A stretch of DNA of 64,000 nucleotides from Pseudomonas fluorescens (GTDB lineage Bacteria; Pseudomonadota; Gammaproteobacteria; Pseudomonadales; Pseudomonadaceae), in contig NZ_CP008896.1 in assembly GCF_000730425.1 (NCBI RefSeq), forward strand, positions 62,001-126,000, read 5' to 3'. Positions 11,915 through 60,851 of the stretch are shown here, in pieces. Made by a program: the position numbers and the translations under genes. The notes below the pieces were generated by a model. That model was not told the origin of the DNA. It made no database searches and saw only the letters and a program-made list of their open reading frames with translations. How positions within the stretch are numbered: the stretch's first letter is position 1; the number at the start of each line of letters is the position of its first letter.

Positions 11915-11922
11915 TGGCAGGT

Positions 11923-14900
11923 TTAACCGGTAACCGCTTCATGCTGCGCCAATTGCTGGAGCAGGCTGTGCAGAAGTTGGTTGTTGTTGAGCATCTGGTA
12001 ATGCCCGGCGACGATCCGTTCGTCCAGGACGCTGCCCGCCACCGGGTTGGCGAAGTCTGGGGTACTGGCATCGCAGGCCCACCAGCAACTGGCTGCAGCA
12101 CGTGTCCGGGGCAGTGCCGTCAGCCCCAGGGACAGGGCCTTGAGTTTCATCGCGACCCTAAACGTATGGGCCAATTCCTCGACACTGATCTCGTTGAACG
12201 CACAAGTGCTGGCGACGTGTTGACGGATATCCGTGATCAAGCTCTCCACCCTGGCTTGAGGGCTGTCGGCGGGCAGTTCCACTACCGGCAGCTGTTCGGT
12301 GGCTTGGCCGAAGATCACCGCGAGGAAACCACGCAAGTCATCGCCCCAATCCAGATCGGCGGCAACCGGGGTGGCGGATGGGATAAAACTGTCGACCAGC
12401 CCCAGGAACTCTACTTCCTGACCCTGCTTTTCCAGTTCCTGAGCCACCAGGACCGCGAGGGTCCCTCCCAGCGACCAACCCACCAGTTGATAAGGCCCCA
12501 GGGCCTGTTTCTGGCGGATGTACTGGGCATAGTCGATAGCCATGGATGCCAGCGATTCATCCTGCCAGTCGCGGTCGAGCAGCATTCGGCATTGCAGGCC
12601 GTAGACACTGCGCTTGCCCTCCAGGCGGCGGGCGAGGGTGTCATAGTCGAACACCGTGCCAAAGCCGGCATGCAGGCAAAACAGTGGTTGGGCGTGGGGC
12701 ATGCGGCTATTGAGCAGCAGCAGCGGATCCAGGTCGGTGGCCGGGGCAAAGCCTGACAGTTCGGCAATGGTCGGTTTGCCGATCATGTCCCGCAGTTTCA
12801 ATTCGAGCCCCAGTTCAGGCTGGCTGCGCACTTTGGACAGGACTTTGAGGATACGCAGCGAGTCGCCGCCCAGTTCAAAGAAGTTGTCGGTCACGCCCAC
12901 GCTTTCCAGTTCCAGCACGTGCTGCCAGATGGTCGCCAGGGCTCGCTCCACGGCATTGCGCGGGGCCACGAATTCACGGCCCTTGAAGTCAGGATCGGGC
13001 AGGGCCTTTCGGTCGATTTTGCCGTTGGGATTAAGCGGCAATGCGGCCAGGCGGATGATCTGCGCGGGCACCATGTAATCCGGCAAGTCAGCCTGAAGCA
13101 AACCACGCAGTCGCTCTGCTGGGGCCTCATCGGCCGGTGTCACGACGTAGCCGATCAGTTGCTTGCTGGCCCCTGTCTCGCGGGCGACAACCACGGCATC
13201 CTGCACCCCGGGAATGTCCCGCAACCTGGATTCGATTTCGCCGAGTTCGATGCGAAAGCCACGGATTTTCACCTGATTGTCCAGGCGACCCAGGTAGTCA
13301 ATGACGCCGTCAGGTCGCTGACGTACCAGATCGCCGGTGCGGTACAGGCGTGAGCCATCGGCCGCGAATGGGTCAACCACAAACCGTTCGGCCGTCAGCC
13401 CCGGACGCTGGTGGTAACCCCGGGCCACGCCCTCACCACCGATATACAACTCGCCGGCTGCCCCCTCGGGCAAAGGATTGAGATGTTCATCGAGGACATA
13501 CAGCGTGCGCTCGCCAACGCGTGTCCCAATCGGTGCATACACCGCGCCGCAGGTTTGAGTGGCGGCGACTTTCCACAGCAACGGCGTCACCACGGTTTCG
13601 GTAGGGCCATAGCCGTTGGTCAAGTACGCAGGCTTGAGGGCCTGCTTGACCAGCTCAAAGTTGGCATCGGCCACCGCGTCCCCGCCAAAGCAGTAAATGC
13701 GCACCGCAGGAGGTGCCTTGCCGCAATCACGGGCGTATTCCGCCAGTTGTTGCAGATAGGCCGGTGGGAAGCAGGCAATGCTGATCTTATGGGCGTGCAA
13801 GGCGTGCCAGGTTTCCTCGGGAGTCCATAGGCGGTTTTCGCGCACCACCAGCTGGCCGCCGTGGGCCAATGTGCTCAGCCAGCGCTCCTGGGCCCCGTCG
13901 AAGGCAAACGACATGAACAACAGCTCGCGGGTGGCGCTATCCATTTCATAGCGTTGACCGATGGCCTGGCAGTGCATGCGGATCTGCCCGTGACTGACCG
14001 CCACACCCTTGGGTTTGCCGGTAGAGCCTGAGGTGTAGATCAGGTAGGCAAGGTTGTCGGCGTCGATCAGTGGTGCGGGGCAGGTATCGGGCTGCGTCGC
14101 CAGTGACAGGGTGTCGAGTTCGATCAGCGTGGGCGCCCACGGCTGGTCGAAGCGTTCGCGTAGCGGGCTTTGGGTCAGCAATACCCCCATGGCCGAATCT
14201 TCGACAATCCACTTCACCCGGTCTTCCGGATAGTCGATGTCCAGCGGGACGTAAGCGCCGCCAGTCTTCATCACGGCATAGAAGGCGACAACCACATCCA
14301 CCGAGCGCTCCAGGGCGACGCCAACGAAGGTCTCCGGTCCCACCCCCTGGGCGATCAGGTGATGGCCCAGACGATTGGCACGTTGCTCAAGTTGGCCATA
14401 GGTCAAGCGATTGTGTTCGCAAACCACCGCCACGGTATCGGGAGACCTCTCGGCATGCTGGCGGATCTGTTGCGCCAACAGGTGTTGGCCATGGGGTTGG
14501 GTCGTCAGTTGATTGCGTTGCTGCAACGCCCGTTGCTCTTGTGCATTGAGCGTGGGCAGGCTGCCCAGGGTCGCCGTCGGGTCACCCAGCATGGCCAGCA
14601 ACAGGGTTTCAAAGCTGCGGCGCAGTTGCTCAACGGCCTCGACGGTGAAGCGGTTGCGCAGGTACATGAACTCGATGCTCAGGCGACTGCCAAGGTTGAC
14701 CGCCAGATCCATGGCGAAAGTGGTGACGTCCTGGCTCTTGGTTTCACCGAATCGGAGCTGATCTTGCTCGGCCTCTTGCAGGCGCTCGTCCACCGGGTAG
14801 TTCTCGAACACGATGATGCTGTCGAACAGCGCCTGGCCACCTTGGCCGGACCAGCGTTGCACATCGGCCAGTGACGCATGTTCGTGATCGCGTACTTCCA

Positions 14901-53413: not shown

Positions 53414-53769
53414 GGGCGCTCCCGGATCAACAGCTCTTCGAGCACTTCGCCGCCCACCAGGTGTACATCCACCAGGCGCACGGCATCGGCCTTGTTGCGC
53501 ACGCCATACCAGCAGCGCTCCGGGTACACCGTGAGCACCGGCCCCAGGTTGCACGGGAACTGGCAATGGGTGCGTGTCAGCAGTACGCCGCCGGGCACTT
53601 CGATGTGCTGGTGTTCCAGCAGGCGCCGGCGCAGGGTTTTCCACAGCTGCAAGGCGCCGCGCTGGGTACAGCGCGGGCCGGTGCATAGCAGCACATGCCG
53701 GGCGTGGTCGGGGATACGGGACCAGTCGGGGTGGGTGTCAACCCCGTCGATTTGCGTGATTTGAGTCAT
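53410..53769 (-). CDS. Thioredoxin-like [2Fe-2S] ferredoxin domain protein
   Basis: A small protein of 119 residues. Four cysteines are arranged as LLCTGPRCTQRG and THCQFPCNLGP, the pattern of thioredoxin-fold [2Fe-2S] proteins. The C-terminal half (VYPERCWYG, VDVHLVGGEVLEELL) also fits that family. It has no signal peptide and is expected in the cytoplasm. It sits between the btuB-like receptor and btuF-like genes, with a one-base overlap upstream and a four-base overlap downstream, so it belongs to the cobalamin operon. Its function there is not established; a redox role on the corrin or cobalt is an inference. Confidence 0.8.
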   Translation of the reverse strand: MTQITQIDGVDTHPDWSRIPDHARHVLLCTGPRCTQRGALQLWKTLRRRLLEHQHIEVPGGVLLTRTHCQFPCNLGPVLTVYPERCWYGVRNKADAVRLVDVHLVGGEVLEELLIRERP

Positions 53770-55709
53770 CAAAAACGATACGTGTAACGCACCTCTGAGG
53801 TGAACGGTCGGCCCAGGTTGTCGACATTGCTGGAGCGGCTGGTGACGTAGTCGCGGTCGAAGAGGTTTTCTACCAGCAGGCTCACCCGATGTTGATGGGC
53901 ATTGTCGAGGTAGCGGTAGGCATCGGCATCCACCACCGAATAATGGCCGTACTCGATCCGTTTCGAGCTGATCACATCGTGGATATAGCGGATGGCCGCG
54001 CCGGCGCCCCACAGGCGATTCTGCGACTCGAAACCCACCCGCGAGCGGGCGAAGAAACTCGGCACATCATTGATGGTGACTCCGGCGCGCGACTCGGTGA
54101 GGTTGCGGGTCATGTCCGCCTGCAGGCTCCACTGCTCGTTGAGTGCCAACTGGGCGTCGGCCTCGAAGCCGCGCATCTGGATCTGCCCCTGGCCGTTGAC
54201 CCACTGGCTATCGTCGAGGGTGATCAGGTCGGTGATCTTGCGCTTGAACAGGGTCACGCTGGCGCTGAATTCACGGTCGGCCAGCAGGCCCTTGTAGTCC
54301 AGGCCCAGCTCGGCGTTGCGGCTTTTCTCCGGCTTGAGGTTACGGTTGCCGATCTCGTCGCCGGGCTCGTTGACGAACAATTGCTCGGCATTCGGCAGCT
54401 TGTAGGCGGTGCCGTACTGGCCGCGCAAGGCCCAGTTGGCGTTGAGGTCATACAGCGAGGTGAGCATGCCGACAGTGGCACTGTCACCGCCGCTCATGGT
54501 TTCGTGGCGCACGCCGAGGCTCGGGTGCCAGTCGGGCAGGGCGTCGATCTGCGGTCGCAATTGGGTGTACAAGGCATGGGCTTCGGCCTTGTTGTTGTCG
54601 ATGACCATCACGTCGTCCTGGCCCTTGAACCACTGGTTATCGGAGCCGAACACCAGCACATGGCCGCCCGTAAGCTCAGCCTTGCCTTCGGCCTGTACGC
54701 CCCAGTCGGTAAAGCCCCAGTAATCGTTGTGATTGCGCACCACGGTGCCGCCGCCGGCGGTGTTGTTGACCCGTGAGTAGCGGGTGTCCCAATCGTTGAT
54801 ATGGCCTTTGACGAAGTAGCTCAGCCGCTCGTTGACGCGCTGTTCGAAGGTCGTCGTAGCAATCTGCTGCACGCGATCGTTGGTGGTCTTGCGGTGGTTG
54901 GTGGCGCCGGCGAAGTCCAGGTTGGCATCGGAGTACTGGTAAAACAGCTCCAGGCGTGAGTCATCGCCAAAGGACTGGATGGCCTTGGCACCGAAGGTGG
55001 TGACTTCGTAGGAACGTTTCTTGTCGGTGACATTGCTCATGTCGCGGTTGCGAAACGGCTGGTAGCCCTCGGACGCGTTATGGCTGACGTAGGCCAGCAG
55101 CCCCAGGTCGCCCAGGCCATTGCGCAAAATCCGCTCGGCCCGGGCATCGCCGGTGGTACCGCCGAAGGTATCGACGCCGAGGTTGGTTTCGCCGGAAACG
55201 TCACGGGTCTGCGGGCTGCGTGTGACGATGTTGATGACCCCAGCCACCGCCTGGGTGCCGAACAACAGGCTTTGCCCACCCTTGAGCACTTCGATGCGCT
55301 CCACGGCGTTGGCCGGTAGGGTGTCCAGGTACAGGCCGCCGTACAGGCGATTGTTCAGGCGTACGCCGTCGAGCAGGATCAGGGTGTCGTCATTGCGTCC
55401 GCCCAGCAGGGAATAGGTGCCGTAATCGAACGGGCCGTTTTTCGGTGCGACGTAGAAGCCGGGGATGAACATCTGCATTGCCCGGGTGATATCCGCGCTG
55501 GGGCCGGCGCGTTCAATCTGCTCGCGGGTGACAATCTCGACCTTGCTGCCGTATTGGGCCATCTCGGCCACCGTGGTGGACTCCACCGACGGTGCGGAAA
55601 CGGTCTGTGGCTTGAGCTCCAAGGTGCTGTTGTCTGCAAGCAGCAGGGGGCTGAACAGGCAACCCAGCAGGAGGGTCGAGCCAGAGGTAGAGGAACGTTG
55701 GAACATCAT
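53769..55709 (-). CDS. btuB: TonB-dependent cobalamin receptor, BtuB-like
   Basis: A protein of about 646 residues with a signal peptide (STLLLGCLFSPLLLA), a plug domain (KVEIVTREQIERAG, LLDGVRLNNRLYGG, GGQSLLFGTQAVAGVINIVT) and a beta barrel ending YTYRF with a terminal aromatic residue. It lacks an STN domain, unlike FpvA, and its size is close to that of BtuB. A cobalamin riboswitch in its 5' leader identifies the likely substrate as vitamin B12 or a related corrinoid. The ATGs at 55709 and 55706 are equivalent. Confidence 0.88.
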   Translation of the reverse strand: MMFQRSSTSGSTLLLGCLFSPLLLADNSTLELKPQTVSAPSVESTTVAEMAQYGSKVEIVTREQIERAGPSADITRAMQMFIPGFYVAPKNGPFDYGTYSLLGGRNDDTLILLDGVRLNNRLYGGLYLDTLPANAVERIEVLKGGQSLLFGTQAVAGVINIVTRSPQTRDVSGETNLGVDTFGGTTGDARAERILRNGLGDLGLLAYVSHNASEGYQPFRNRDMSNVTDKKRSYEVTTFGAKAIQSFGDDSRLELFYQYSDANLDFAGATNHRKTTNDRVQQIATTTFEQRVNERLSYFVKGHINDWDTRYSRVNNTAGGGTVVRNHNDYWGFTDWGVQAEGKAELTGGHVLVFGSDNQWFKGQDDVMVIDNNKAEAHALYTQLRPQIDALPDWHPSLGVRHETMSGGDSATVGMLTSLYDLNANWALRGQYGTAYKLPNAEQLFVNEPGDEIGNRNLKPEKSRNAELGLDYKGLLADREFSASVTLFKRKITDLITLDDSQWVNGQGQIQMRGFEADAQLALNEQWSLQADMTRNLTESRAGVTINDVPSFFARSRVGFESQNRLWGAGAAIRYIHDVISSKRIEYGHYSVVDADAYRYLDNAHQHRVSLLVENLFDRDYVTSRSSNVDNLGRPFTSEVRYTYRF

Positions 55710-55816
55710 AGGTCTTCTCGAAAGTATCTTCGCAGAAGCACGCAAGAGAAGGCACCGGGCACACACCGATACCGGCCCATGCCCGCCCACCGCAGGATTA
55801 TGCCAAACAGAAATTC

Positions 55817-55990
55817 CAGGCCGGTCTCCGGGCTCTCGCGTATCGAACCCTTCACCTTCCCATGGCGTTCTGGCCACAGTGGTGTGTCGAAGGGGTCACG
55901 CGAATACCGTTGCGGGGGCAGCACCGGACTTGCTCGAACGAGCGTACCGGTTTCCCGTTTCACCCCATGCACGGCGGCATGAGGCACCTG
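55817..55990 (-). promoter_or_regulatory. Cobalamin riboswitch controlling the btuB operon
   Basis: On the minus strand the leader holds, in order, GGTGCC, AAACGGGAA, the core TGCCCCCGCAACGGTA, CCACTGTGG, GGGAAGGTGAAG and the B12-box-like GAGCCCGGAGACCGGCCT. These are the landmarks of the AdoCbl riboswitch family, at the usual order and distances. It ends about 107 bases before the btuB ATG. It fills most of the gap between the divergent btuB and phosphatase genes. Confidence 0.93.
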
Positions 55991-56105
55991 AAACAGGCCG
56001 GCATCTGAACATTCCCACGACCGTTGGTCAACATTGCGATGCACTGCTGCGAGATCTGATCGTTGTAAGATGCGTCCTTCACCTGATCACCCGAGATCCA
56101 TACCC

Positions 56106-56657
56106 ATGCAGAGCACACGCCTGACGCTGATTTGCCATGACGCGACCCGGGCTCAGAAACGCGGGCAATGGCCCCTCGACGAGGCCCTGCAAGTACCGCC
56201 CACACCCTTGAGACTGGCCGGCCGTTTTAAAAAAGCGCCACGCTTGCTATGTGGGCCAGAACGGCGGACCCGGCAAACGGCGATGCTGTTTGGCGAGGAC
56301 GCCAGGGTCGATGACGGCCTGCGTGATATGGATGTGGGCCGTTGGCATGGCCAGGATGTCAACGCCATCGATCATGAGGAGATGGCAACCTGGCTTGCCG
56401 ACAGCACCCGTGCTCCACACGGCGGTGAGTCGGTAGTACAGCTCTGTGAGCGGGTAGGCCAGTGGATGCAGGCCCTGCAAGACCAGCCCGGCCATGTGCT
56501 GGCGGTGACGCACCCATCGGTGATTCGCGCGGCCCTGCTGCATGTCATGCAATGCCCGGTTGGTCTGTTCTACCTGATCGATGTGGAGCCGCTGTCCTCC
56601 ACTGACCTGCGCTTCAACCGTGTCTGGCGTTTGCGCCTGGACGGGCACCGTGAATAA
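56106..56657 (+). CDS. Histidine phosphatase, CobC-like (alpha-ribazole phosphatase family)
   Basis: A 183-residue phosphoglycerate-mutase-fold protein divergent from btuB. The usual N-terminal LIRHG reads LICHDATRAQ, so the catalytic His is kept but Arg and Gly of the RHG motif are replaced by Cys and Asp. Downstream landmarks remain: RRTRQTA, DVGRWHGQ, GGES and VTHPSVIRAAL with the second His. In the cobalamin context it may be the alpha-ribazole-5'-phosphate phosphatase of nucleotide-loop assembly, but the altered RHG makes activity uncertain. The ATG at 56106 lies just before the first strand. Confidence 0.75.
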   Translation: MQSTRLTLICHDATRAQKRGQWPLDEALQVPPTPLRLAGRFKKAPRLLCGPERRTRQTAMLFGEDARVDDGLRDMDVGRWHGQDVNAIDHEEMATWLADSTRAPHGGESVVQLCERVGQWMQALQDQPGHVLAVTHPSVIRAALLHVMQCPVGLFYLIDVEPLSSTDLRFNRVWRLRLDGHRE

Positions 56658-56673
56658 CGGATGAGGTGGCAAA

Positions 56674-56757
56674 ATGAAATCATTTGCGTTTATATACGGC
56701 GCTGTTTCGGCGATGGCCGTCGTGCGCTATCGAGTGCGTATACATTTTGCAGATTGA
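56674..56757 (+). CDS. Possible small ORF (27 aa) ahead of the ATPase-nuclease cassette
   Basis: ATG at 56674 is preceded by GAGG seven bases upstream and encodes MKSFAFIYGAVSAMAVVRYR plus seven residues, ending at TGA 12 bases before the ATPase start. It is part hydrophobic. It may be a leader peptide, a tiny cassette component or chance. Confidence 0.25.
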   Translation: MKSFAFIYGAVSAMAVVRYRVRIHFAD

Positions 56758-56769
56758 GCAAGGACGTTT

Positions 56770-58260
56770 ATGAGGGCAAGAAAGCTGATTGCGGTGGAAA
56801 CCGGCAAGCACACCTTTGAGTTTGAAAACAAAGAAAGCTTGAAGTGGCAGGGCTTTTTTGATGTGGACACGGTCCGCCTGGTCCTGGGTAACAACGGCTC
56901 TGGTAAGACGTCACTCTTGAGCGACATGGCGGCGTCGATCTCCTCGATGCGTGCATTGCCTCAACGTTCTGTGTTTGGTCAGTACGAAGAAGGTGTCGGT
57001 AAATTGTCAGCGGCCGAGTTGAGCAAAGTGGGTGTTATCTATTTTTCGCCTTTGCCGTATCGCAGAAGAATCCCGCTCAGAAATAGATTTGTCGATGCCT
57101 CGCCTCGATTTGAAAAAAATGCAAGCCTGGATCAGTTGGAACAGTTTTATTCGGTTGCAGCGGAGTTGGGGCTGAGTTCGAGTCTGCGTGCTGCGATCAC
57201 TTATAGCTCAACGTTATGCAAGGACATCCTTGCGCCGGCACTGCTCTCATTGGTGCGCTCGAAAACAGGGCATTTAAATTCGCCAGTGCTCGAAAGTTTT
57301 ATCATTGAATATCGAAAGCTGGTGATGAGTGAGGAAGATTTTCGATCACCCTATTATGAACGGGGTCACCCCAATAGTTTATTTGAAAAACGCTTCGATG
57401 CGCTCTTGCTGAAGATTGAAGGGGCAGTGTTAAGCAACTTGCCCGCAGGGAAGGGCAGGCTTGCAATGCTGGCTACTTTGGAAAAAATGGTAGAGAAGCA
57501 TTCAAGTAAGTTGCGTGTGGGTCGGGCTTTTCTAAAATTGAACAGTATGGCCGACTACATGCAGGACCGGCGTGATGACCTGATTACGAAAGATATCGTG
57601 AAAAGCTTTGATTCTACGTTGGAGTGGTTGCGCCTCGGGAAAAAGAACCCTGAAAGAAAAAAACGGAGCTATACGTTTACCATTGAGTCGGCTGTGCAAG
57701 CTGCGCAGTTGGTCTCCTCCCCAGCAGCCGTCGAGATACTGTTGGGGGAACAGAGTTCGGGTGTGAGGGCATTGGTTGATCAGTTTTTTCTGTTGCGAAA
57801 AGCCTTTGAGCGGATGCGTGATAAACGGTTGAATCATGTGCTTGTGTTGATTGATGAGGGGGACGCCTATTTGCATTTGGCTTGGCAGCGTCGTTACATA
57901 TCTTTATTGAATAAATTTATGGCGGCGGCCAAGAAAAAATTCGATGTTGACGTTTTGCAGCTGGTTGTTGCCACTCACTCTCCGGTGATAACCGGTGATT
58001 TTCCAACGTGCATGGTCACTAATCTGGATAAAGAACAAGGATTGGGGGCGACCTTCGCTACACCATTGGAAGATATCGTTTTCAAAGCGTTTGATTCGGT
58101 TGCATTAGGTGAGTTTGCTGCAGAAAAAATCAATCAGTTGCACGCACGAATAACAGATCACGCGCTGTTGCCGCAGGATCAGTTATTGCTGGACAGCATT
58201 GGTGACGCGGGCATCAAAAATGCGCTGCTGCGTGTGCGCAAGGACAGTCAGAAATCATGA
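56770..58260 (+). CDS. AAA/ABC-type ATPase of a PtuA-like (Septu-like) defence cassette
   Basis: A 496-residue cytoplasmic ATPase of the RecF/SMC-like class. Walker A GNNGSGKTS is at 40-48, a possible signature LGEQSSGVRALV is near 320, Walker B LVLIDEGDAYLHL is near 360 and the H-loop ATHSPVITGDF is near 402. The middle region is long and charged, as in overcoming-lysogenization and PtuA-type ATPases, but no TOPRIM nuclease is visible. The DNA is visibly richer in A and T than its neighbours. It overlaps the following HNH gene by ATGA, so the two act together. ATPase plus HNH is the core of Septu anti-phage systems; whether this is a true Septu or a related undescribed type cannot be told without searches. 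The first 30 residues form a short N-terminal strand region before the P-loop. Confidence 0.85.
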   Translation: MRARKLIAVETGKHTFEFENKESLKWQGFFDVDTVRLVLGNNGSGKTSLLSDMAASISSMRALPQRSVFGQYEEGVGKLSAAELSKVGVIYFSPLPYRRRIPLRNRFVDASPRFEKNASLDQLEQFYSVAAELGLSSSLRAAITYSSTLCKDILAPALLSLVRSKTGHLNSPVLESFIIEYRKLVMSEEDFRSPYYERGHPNSLFEKRFDALLLKIEGAVLSNLPAGKGRLAMLATLEKMVEKHSSKLRVGRAFLKLNSMADYMQDRRDDLITKDIVKSFDSTLEWLRLGKKNPERKKRSYTFTIESAVQAAQLVSSPAAVEILLGEQSSGVRALVDQFFLLRKAFERMRDKRLNHVLVLIDEGDAYLHLAWQRRYISLLNKFMAAAKKKFDVDVLQLVVATHSPVITGDFPTCMVTNLDKEQGLGATFATPLEDIVFKAFDSVALGEFAAEKINQLHARITDHALLPQDQLLLDSIGDAGIKNALLRVRKDSQKS

Positions 58261-59219
58261 TCATTAATGTCTCTGATATGTGGTATAAGGCGCGTACTCG
58301 GCATCGAACATTTGTCGCGAGTAAAATCGACGACATGTTGATCGCCCTGCGTCAGTTCAAGGGGCCTTGCCAGGCTGGCGTTATGGTGCAGTATCGATTG
58401 GCTGATTTCATGGCGCAGTATAAAAACCAGATATGCCGGGAGTTGGCCGGAAGTTTGCGCGCAATCGCTGAGGACTTTCGTAAAAGATTCAAGTCGAAGT
58501 CCGAACGCAAGGCTGTTCGCCAGCTTTTGGAGAACTACTTGAATTATAAGAGTTTCAGCGCCAAGCCTTCGGTTTTTCCGCCAGTTAACTGGTGTGCGTA
58601 TGCGCTGTGCTCTACGGTTGATTATGTCATTTGTCCGTATTGCCATATGGCAAGCATTGATGTGAGGGAGGGGGACGAGAGCATTTCGGGATACCGGGGG
58701 AGCCTTGACCATTATTATCCCAAGGCCGCAATACCATTCCTTTCCCTGACATTGGGTAACTTGGTGCTTGCCTGCGAACAATGCAATGGCTCGTCCATGA
58801 AGGGCTCTAAGCGCTTCGACAAAATTGCCCACCTTCATCCTTTTCTGGATCAGGAAAGCATTGGGTTCTCATTGGTGTTCAGAGGCAAGAAACTCAGTGT
58901 ACAGCACTGGGCACTCGACCTTGATTCAACGATGTATAAAATACGGCTCTCGTTACCGACGGATAATCAGGAACGTAAAAAGGCTATTCATTCAATCCGA
59001 ACGTTTCAATTGGGCGCGCGCTATCAGCTTTTTGTCGAAAAGGCATTGTCCGTGCAGAGAATCTCCAGGGTTGAAACGCGCCCGTTAGCGGTTAATAGTC
59101 AGCTGACCAACTTTAAAGTTACGCGCAATGACTATATAGGCGTGGACCCCCTGAATTATAAAAATACCCTGGCCGGAAAGTTCATGGTGGATATTGCCAA
59201 ACAATTTGATTTTATTTGA
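58257..59219 (+). CDS. HNH endonuclease of a PtuB-like (Septu-like) defence cassette
   Basis: A 320-residue protein. A zinc-binding HNH core is visible: CPYC near 125, the catalytic-region LDHYYPK near 150, LGNLVLACEQCNGSSMKGSK near 165-185. The N-terminal ~120 residues are basic and helical (FRKRFKSKSERKAVRQLLEN), and the C-terminal ~130 residues are also basic. The likely role is DNA or tRNA cleavage triggered by the partner ATPase on infection. It is translationally coupled to the ATPase and low in GC. Together they interrupt the cobC-like/cobF neighbourhood. No restriction-modification methylase, reverse transcriptase or integrase is nearby. Confidence 0.85.
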   Translation: MIINVSDMWYKARTRHRTFVASKIDDMLIALRQFKGPCQAGVMVQYRLADFMAQYKNQICRELAGSLRAIAEDFRKRFKSKSERKAVRQLLENYLNYKSFSAKPSVFPPVNWCAYALCSTVDYVICPYCHMASIDVREGDESISGYRGSLDHYYPKAAIPFLSLTLGNLVLACEQCNGSSMKGSKRFDKIAHLHPFLDQESIGFSLVFRGKKLSVQHWALDLDSTMYKIRLSLPTDNQERKKAIHSIRTFQLGARYQLFVEKALSVQRISRVETRPLAVNSQLTNFKVTRNDYIGVDPLNYKNTLAGKFMVDIAKQFDFI

Positions 59220-59360
59220 GTGCTGCCCGGTTGTTGAATGCCTGGAACGAACAGTCTGGAGCGCAGGGGCGGGGTGCTGGTGTTTAATCCTGCCGCCAGC
59301 GGCCTTTGCATGGCAAAATCCGCACCCTCAGCTTGACCCGTTATCGAGAACACCTGACCC

Positions 59361-60119
59361 ATGAAAAAAATCCTGATCATCGGCATTGGCGCCGGCAACC
59401 CCGACTACATCACGATGCAGGCGGTGAAGGCGTTGAACCGCACCGACGTGTTTTTCCTGATGGACAAGGGCCAGAGCAAGGACAAGCTGATCGACCTGCG
59501 GCGGGAAATCTGCCAGACCCATATCGATGCCGGGCATGCCTACCGCTTTGTCGAAGCCGACTGCCCCGAGCGGGTGCGTGGCGAGATCGACTACACCACG
59601 GCTGTGCAGGATCTGAACCGCGACAAGCAACAAACCTTCGAGCGCATGATCAACGAAGAATTGGCCGACGGTGAAGTGGGCGCCTTCCTGGCCTGGGGCG
59701 ATCCGGCGTTGTACGACAGCACTATCCGCATCTTGCAGGCGATCCTGGCCGGTGGCGGCAGTGTGTTCGAGTTCGAGGTCATCCCCGGCATCACCAGCGT
59801 CCAGGCCCTGGCCGCCCAGCATAAGGTGCCGCTCAACCGCATCGGCCGCTCCATCGAGATCACCACCGGACGGCGGCTCGCCGCCGGGCAGGCCAGTGAT
59901 GCCGATACCCTGGTGGTGATGCTCGATGCCGAGGATTCCTACCGCAGCGTGGCGGACCAGGACCTGGAGATCTACTGGGGCGCGTACCTGGGCACGCCGG
60001 ATGAAATCCTGATCAGTGGCAAGGTGGCCGAGGTGGCCGAGGACATCGAGCGCGTGCGCAAGGCGGCGCGCCAGGCCAATGGCTGGATCATGGACACCTA
60101 CCTGCTGCGCAAGCCGTAG
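59361..60119 (+). CDS. cobF: Precorrin-6A synthase (deacetylating) CobF
   Basis: A cytoplasmic SAM-dependent methyltransferase of 252 residues that methylates C-1 of precorrin-5 and releases the C-20 fragment as acetate in aerobic cobalamin synthesis. The N-terminal GIGAGNPDYITMQAVKALN is the tetrapyrrole-methylase P-loop, followed by FLMDKGQSKDKLIDLR and the EVIPGITSVQALAA motif. The start is the ATG after CACCTGACCC; no strong Shine-Dalgarno is evident. It supports the view that the locus is part of the cobalamin region. Confidence 0.92.
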   Translation: MKKILIIGIGAGNPDYITMQAVKALNRTDVFFLMDKGQSKDKLIDLRREICQTHIDAGHAYRFVEADCPERVRGEIDYTTAVQDLNRDKQQTFERMINEELADGEVGAFLAWGDPALYDSTIRILQAILAGGGSVFEFEVIPGITSVQALAAQHKVPLNRIGRSIEITTGRRLAAGQASDADTLVVMLDAEDSYRSVADQDLEIYWGAYLGTPDEILISGKVAEVAEDIERVRKAARQANGWIMDTYLLRKP

Positions 60120-60147
60120 GTGTTCTGGCTGTTGGAATGCAATCAAA

Positions 60148-60247
60148 AAATGTGGGAGCGGGCTTGCTCGCGAAAGCGGTGTGTCAGTCAATACATCTAC
60201 TGACTGATCCGCCGCTTTCGCGAGCAAGCCCGCTCCCACATTGGATT
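60148..60247. repeat. REPIN: two inverted REP sequences
   Basis: Two arms of about 30 bases, beginning ATGTGGGAGCGGGCTTGCTC (60150-60179) and its reverse complement (60212-60241), flank a 32-base spacer that is itself partly palindromic. This is the typical GTGGGAGCGGGCTTGCTCGCG REP family of P. fluorescens. It lies between convergent cobF and the small exported protein gene, and could also work as a terminator. Confidence 0.88.
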
Positions 60248-60266
60248 TTTGGTGCTTAGGGGGATG

Positions 60267-60851
60267 TCACTTGCCGCTGGTAATCTGCCTGACCAGCAGT
60301 TCATGCCCCGTCACATCCTCGGCCCGGGAAATGGCCTGGATCACCAGCAAGCGGTTGCCGGAGCCGGCCAGGAAGACCGAGTTCAAGGTCTTGCCGCCCC
60401 CCATGCTTGCCGTGCCATCAATCTGGCGCAGGCCCACGCCTTTGATCAGCAGTTTCTTCTGTGCCAGTTTCTTGTAGTCCGGCAGGCTGGTGCCTACGTC
60501 CTTGAGGAAACCTTCAGCCGCGCTATCGAGAAACAGCGGTTCGTCGTCCTTCAGGTCGATACCGTCATTGCGCAGGGTCTGGGCCACCACCACCACGCTT
60601 TTTGACGCCTGGTTGATATACATCGTGCCGTTGGCGCCAGCATTGCCCTTGGCTTGCGCGCCGGCAGGCAAGGCATCGGCGACATAGCCTTTGGGCAGGG
60701 TGAAGGTGAATTTGCCGTCCAGGGTCGAGACGATCTGGAAGTCGTCTGGCTTCGCGGTGTCTGGCTTGGCTGCCGCGAACAGCGGGCTGGCGCCCAGGCT
60801 GACGGTCAGCGCCAGGGCCAGGCGGGCGGCAGTGTTGCTGAGGCTGAGCAT
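60267..60851 (-). CDS. Small exported protein of unknown function
   Basis: A 194-residue protein with a signal peptide (ALALTVSLGASPLFA, cleavage likely after AAA) and a soluble domain of alternating beta strands (GKFTFTLPKGYVADALP, KSVVVVAQTL, GKTLNSVFLAGSGNRLLVIQ). No catalytic motif was recognised; a DcrB-like periplasmic or lipid-side protein is possible. The ATG at 60851 is chosen because the signal peptide begins there. It is 73 bases downstream of the antiporter gene on the same strand. Confidence 0.7.
   Translation of the reverse strand: MLSLSNTAARLALALTVSLGASPLFAAAKPDTAKPDDFQIVSTLDGKFTFTLPKGYVADALPAGAQAKGNAGANGTMYINQASKSVVVVAQTLRNDGIDLKDDEPLFLDSAAEGFLKDVGTSLPDYKKLAQKKLLIKGVGLRQIDGTASMGGGKTLNSVFLAGSGNRLLVIQAISRAEDVTGHELLVRQITSGK

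Follow-up and report, generated by a model that had tools for sequence, protein, structure and literature searches.

Closest described systems

Septu pairs adjacent genes for an ABC/SMC-type ATPase (PtuA) and an HNH nuclease (PtuB), and PtuA/PtuB proteins are also the effectors of type I-A retrons (retron-Eco7/Ec78 and Ec83). The available text of PMC11555353 reports that, in the context of retron-Eco7, PtuA and PtuB arrested growth when present together but not individually, that the retron-Eco7 pair depleted tRNA-Tyr, and that nicked DNA had been reported for the Septu of Escherichia coli ATCC 25922. The Septu described in the available part of PMC13096335 targets tRNA-Tyr. A further two-gene entry, PDC-M62, is listed as a phage defense candidate in PADLOC-DB 2.0.0. 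The only paper found to name it within the open-access literature was PMC11811056, whose accessible sections describe a survey with 203 pairs that one tool called Septu and PADLOC called PDC-M62, and state that DefenseFinder labels most such pairs Septu; an experimental test of PDC-M62 was not found in the literature searched. Here we analyzed a 64,000-nucleotide stretch of Pseudomonas fluorescens DNA (the window; contig NZ_CP008896.1, positions 62,001 to 126,000; positions below are those of the window) carrying two overlapping genes, A and B, flanked by a CobC-like phosphatase gene and cobF. We read A and B as an anti-phage module of the PtuA/PtuB type, within the branch catalogued by PADLOC as the candidate PDC-M62 (probability, about 0.78).

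We favor this reading because the genes overlap and retain intact catalytic residues, because their products have PtuA/PtuB-like predicted folds, and because A and B have diversified together. It is further favored because several relatives lie in defense-island or prophage surroundings, because the ratio of nonsynonymous to synonymous divergence (dN/dS) is low between two close species, and because the junction of cobC and cobF is occupied, empty, or scarred depending on the species.

The gene pair and its family

Gene A (56770 to 58260, forward strand) encodes a 496-residue SMC/ABC-type ATPase and gene B (58257 to 59219, forward strand) a 320-residue HNH nuclease; as read from the open reading frames (ORFs), they overlap by 4 bp (ATGA, 58257 to 58260). 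The first-pass annotation had described the same overlapping ORFs and had likened their pairing to that of PtuA/PtuB. The likeness was borne out by the predicted single-chain folds, for which the best matches were the Septu/retron PtuA (for A) and PtuB (for B), the retron I-A effectors being the nearest solved structures for both; PDB 8eea is an example of the Septu PtuA/PtuB. A plain Foldseek search with B found nothing at an E value of ≤0.001 in PDB or BFVD, and PtuB surfaced only on a second look.

At the sequence level, the top PADLOC matches were PDC-M62A for A (9.7e-20; residues 319 to 461) and PDC-M62B for B (2.4e-32; residues 48 to 258). The gene order (A first, then B) is that of PDC-M62, and the PDC-M62 models matched 30 of 30 relatives of A and 24 of 24 relatives of B. 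The models of PDC-M62A differ in that those among the matches listed were at least 597 residues long, this clade being shorter and diverged; they covered only residues 319 to 461 or 328 to 488 of A. By best match, the pair would belong to PDC-M62. It is therefore not the new defense system that had been suggested, because PADLOC already holds models for it and DefenseFinder reportedly calls most such pairs Septu.

The companion suggestion of a separate subtype stood in part. The pair fell under the curated PtuA and PtuB cut-offs (NF041760, 28.8 versus 500 bits; NF041761, 14.3 versus 150 bits; both are models of retron Ec78 proteins) and under that of TIGR02646 (13.5 versus 52.15 bits), but its best matches are already catalogued as PDC-M62. 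Because of these scores, we did not file it as a member of Septu; most likely, it works like Septu. Profile comparisons with the canonical Septu proteins of a related locus (L121, described below) matched the Walker B/H-loop part of A to PtuA (98.3% probability) and the HNH core of B to PtuB (71% probability).

Some other described systems were rejected. A retron effector was discounted in view of the flanking genes (CobC-like and cobF, with no reverse transcriptase) and of the lack of retron RNA, no Rfam retron family being found at an E value of ≤1 within 55800 to 60300. The AriA protein of PARIS has a related ATPase head (PADLOC, 1.2e-12; solved AriA against A, 5.1e-8), but the partner of A is an HNH protein and not AriB, which is a different effector. 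Gabija was rejected in that a UvrD-like partner is missing and the system was outside the best 25 PADLOC matches.

Conserved residues of A and B

Protein A has the parts of an ABC/SMC-type head, which are conserved in the 30 aligned relatives and were located on the forward strand from that alignment: Walker A (GNNGSGKT, residues 40 to 47; 56887 to 56910), SSG (residues 329 to 331), Walker B (D362-E363; 57853 to 57858), and ATHSP with the H-loop histidine (H403; 57976 to 57978). Residues G40, N42, G43, G45, K46, T47, D362, E363, and H403 were invariant in all 30 aligned relatives. The Pfam AAA_15 model matched A above its cut-off (E value, 1.3e-10).

In B, the HNH core (C126 to K182; 58632 to 58802, forward strand) was recognized by the Pfam HNH model below threshold (18.8 bits; cut-off, 21.4). 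In the alignment of relatives (which covered 26 of the 28 distinct loci, without L121 and L129; the duplicates L117, L119, L124, L127, L128, and L132 were not repeated), residues C126, C129, D151, H152, N168, C176, N177, and K182 were invariant (26/26), and C173 was kept in 24. The His-Asn spacing is 16, as in PtuB. The counterparts of the residues essential for immunity in Septu EcB88 (Walker A/B and H-N-H), i.e., K46, D362, H152, and N168, were invariant, with equivalence assigned by motif.

Both proteins had been described at first as having long extra regions. This applied to B, whose catalytic histidine is at residue 152 versus 75 in the PtuB of PMC13096335 (as given in its available text), a shift of 77 residues away from the N terminus; it did not apply to A, whose length is inside the range of solved PtuA chains (456 to 552 residues). 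The approximately 120 residues ahead of the HNH core of B are predicted to be largely helical. The basic N terminus noted for the nuclease was found in this B (21 K/R and 9 D/E in residues 1 to 110), but not as a family feature: the net charge ahead of the first CxYC ranged from -5 to +14 across 21 pairs, and a family-wide nucleic-acid-binding extension was rejected on this ground.

Relatives and their surroundings

A was detected (E value of ≤1e-20) in 9 of 398 Pseudomonas genomes, including its own, with B directly downstream in all nine. Across 28 distinct loci, 27 had a B-type ORF after A (the exception was L129). The overlap was 4 bp in 13 of 22 loci and 11 bp in 4 (counting the window and G116/L127, in which A is split). 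Tree distances for A and B were correlated (r = 0.87; 21 pairs), with none of 5,000 permutations giving a value as high. The trees contained 21 of the 28 loci; L049, L051, L054, L055, L056, L129, and L130, in which A was split, short, or distant, were omitted. In the Pseudomonas parafulva locus (L049/L127), A is divided between ORFs of 202 and 351 residues that overlap, and this copy may therefore be broken. The closest proteins in a large protein collection were 84% identical and, for B, included one from Pseudomonas proteolytica.

Family models were used to search the genes around the pair in six nonviral loci (L046, L121, L122, L126, L127, and L128) and three viral loci (L131, L133, and L136). 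The neighbors included Lamassu with an nSTAND3 protein in L122 (LmuB, 1.9e-82; LmuA, 1.1e-24; LmuC, 1.3e-18), Hachiman in L128 (HamA, 6.3e-277; HamB, 8.6e-250), Gabija with a phage integrase in L127 (GajA, 4.1e-150; GajB, 1.4e-111), canonical Septu in L121 (PtuA, 1.8e-143; PtuB, 1.6e-78), and two integrases with a type II methyltransferase in L126. The genes surrounding L048 and L123 looked metabolic by eye. In L121 (5775 to 10816; Caballeronia megalochromosomata), the PDC-M62-type and canonical Septu pairs are separate operons side by side, encoded on opposite strands with less than 1 kb between them. In L046 (Pseudomonas sp. Root562), a phage-integrase-family gene (11916 to 13151, reverse strand) ends within the start of A, perhaps pointing to a mobile carrier of the pair.

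The pair was also present in six viral contigs, of which two were nearly alike in the match table. In a P2-like prophage (L136, 6890 to 10920), it lies between tail-completion and baseplate-assembly genes, a position other than the defense hotspot of P2-like phages, which the available text of PMC9122126 places between gpA and gpQ; in the viral locus L133, it lies between replication-initiation and endolysin genes. No matches were found by blastn of the pair against plasmids or by tblastn of A against phage records. The defense association proposed in the first-pass annotation is supported by these relatives near Lamassu, Hachiman, Gabija, or canonical Septu or in prophages.

The cobC-cobF junction across Pseudomonas

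In the window, the pair is flanked on the left by a CobC-like histidine phosphatase gene (56106 to 56657, forward strand; TIGR03162, 73.6 bits, under the cut-off of 162.9) and on the right by cobF (59361 to 60119, forward strand; 347.6 bits versus a cut-off of 195.8), as had been proposed at first. Its G+C content is 0.480, versus a mean of 0.624 (standard deviation, 0.022; minimum, 0.554) for 1,133 overlapping 2,450-base segments elsewhere in the 64 kb.

We read the junction in 63 of the 360 cobF-bearing genomes among the 398, i.e., the window, two other occupied sites, and the 60 nearest by cobF identity. It was empty in 59 (12 to 69 bp; median, 52 bp), held the pair in 3, and carried a scar in 1; the pair is thus far from general at this spot in Pseudomonas. 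Of the other six Pseudomonas genomes with A, the one whose junction was read (G301) had it empty (L071). The pair was also found at the junction in Pseudomonas khavaziana and Pseudomonas haemolytica, giving five genomes together with the window, Pseudomonas paracarnis (G262), and Pseudomonas palleroniana (G157). In the trees of A and of B alike, these five pairs grouped as a single clade (support, 1.00 and 0.94, respectively).

The scar (127 bp; L083, 8158 to 8290; genome G349) contains the final codons of B, its stop codon, and the 3' flank; the pair was once there and was then deleted. It includes a 19-base string identical to L117 to L119, followed by a stretch like that of P. haemolytica (L120). 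Horizontal gain of the pair, as the first-pass annotation had it, is supported by the AT-richness of the genes, the presence of A in few genomes, and the empty junctions.

Outside the junction itself, a cobalamin riboswitch (55802 to 56006, reverse strand; Rfam RF00174, 105.2 bits) lies ahead of a TonB-receptor ORF (53769 to 55877, reverse strand). Downstream of cobF, positions 60142 to 60254 form a long inverted repeat that is nearly perfect and has arms of the GCGGGCTTGCTCGCGAAAGCGG type, where the Rfam matches were sub-threshold microRNAs; we take it to resemble a Pseudomonas repetitive extragenic palindromic (REP) pair.

A repeated element at the junction

The element TGGCAAAAT preceded cobF exactly in 57 of the 63 junctions and with one mismatch in five, leaving one without it, and mostly lay 34 to 35 bases from the codon at which the cobF match begins. 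The window has this copy, the same as in empty sites, at 59311 to 59319 (forward strand) and a second between the CobC-like gene and A (56667 to 56675, forward strand). A second copy also precedes A in the other occupied sites; the left copy was exact in five of five sites and the right copy in three of five. On the left side of the L083 scar, a TGGCAAAAT-like element has one mismatch. The second copy may have arisen when the insertion duplicated a promoter element of cobF. A scan of sigma-70-type promoters found 4, versus 2.9 expected.

We rejected the two copies as proof of transposition. The element is conserved before cobF and has 48 copies in the genome (11 for a reversed control); the two copies at the junction are the only ones in the window, versus 0.49 expected, and at least two occurred in 10 of 100 shuffles.

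A 27-codon ORF (56674 to 56757) begins within the left copy, after a GGATGAGG-like ribosome site; the sequence at this position is unlike in the other occupied sites.

Divergence of the occupied sites

When the window was compared with the other four species, amino acid identity was 92 to 93% for cobF, 61 to 64% for cobC, 48 to 54% for A, and 37 to 39% for B. Synonymous sites of A and B were saturated, and the synonymous divergence (dS) was 0.60 to 0.71 for cobF and 1.6 to 2.0 for cobC. The CobC-like gene is thus far more diverged between species than cobF, at synonymous sites too. We rejected purely vertical inheritance on the basis of the saturation of A and B versus the dS of cobF. Because the dS of cobC is also high, the entire cobC side may have been exchanged, or evolution may have been faster.

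For P. paracarnis versus P. khavaziana, dS was alike for the four genes (0.32 to 0.52), a pattern like that under common descent, and dN/dS was 0.16 for A and 0.14 for B. For P. paracarnis versus P. haemolytica, dS was higher for A (1.81) than for B (0.83), cobC (0.61), and cobF (0.35). Descent mixed with allele replacement would fit these values, the alternatives being biased codon usage in cobF and rapid evolution of the A and B genes.

Proposed function and alternatives

By analogy with published work on PtuAB, an oligomer of A, built via its ATP-binding heads, would hold B; infection would alter the nucleotide state or the contacts of A; and B, once freed, would cut nucleic acid and stop phage production, probably together with arrest of the cell. 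For the substrate of B, we lean slightly to RNA, at about even odds, over DNA, at somewhat lower odds.

The alternative that survives best, although we consider it improbable, is a general barrier to DNA uptake, i.e., a restriction-like ATPase-nuclease directed at plasmid or transforming DNA entering the cell and not at phage infection. It would accommodate an HNH nuclease capable of cutting DNA, the weak match of A to NCBIfam TIGR04435 (a "restriction system-associated AAA family ATPase"; 31.8 bits, cut-off 300), and the methyltransferase a few kilobases from the pair in L126. The locus in the window, however, lacks both a methyltransferase gene and a specificity gene, the nearest relatives with solved structures are phage defense proteins, and the pair is carried by prophages, which suggests a use against competing phages.

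Less probable still is a toxin-antitoxin-like maintenance or stress module in which B, a toxin kept in check by A, stabilizes the locus instead of defending the cell. The joint growth arrest by PtuAB in the retron-Eco7 setting would agree with such a role, but several relatives have defense genes as neighbors, and the clean loss (empty site) and deletion scar in relatives indicate that the pair is not strongly addictive. An accessory role in the cobalamin pathway, suggested by position and strand only, is very unlikely given that the pair is absent from 59 of 63 junctions and lost from another, that 18 other loci with the pair had no cobC or cobF match (E value of ≤1e-8), and that neither A nor B has a cobalamin-pathway domain.

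Returning to a PtuA/PtuB-type anti-phage module, we tentatively offer a wider picture, which we think somewhat unlikely as a whole. The junction would be a slot for this one pair, at which an old insertion duplicated the promoter-like element of cobF, leaving one each for the cargo and cobF; diverged alleles would since have been swapped between Pseudomonas species via the conserved flanks and lost by deletion. Such a slot would be a chromosomal counterpart of phage-borne defense hotspots, and B, whose N-terminal part is enlarged, may have a substrate different from those of the PtuBs studied so far.

What is new here is that PDC-M62 is connected to PtuAB through the predicted folds and that a chromosomal site is described at which alleles have diverged and a deletion has left a scar. 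Tying PDC-M62 to the PtuA/PtuB fold provides a predicted working mode and residues to mutate. The occupied, empty, and scarred versions of one site amount to a small natural experiment on the gain, divergence, and loss of a defense system, base by base.
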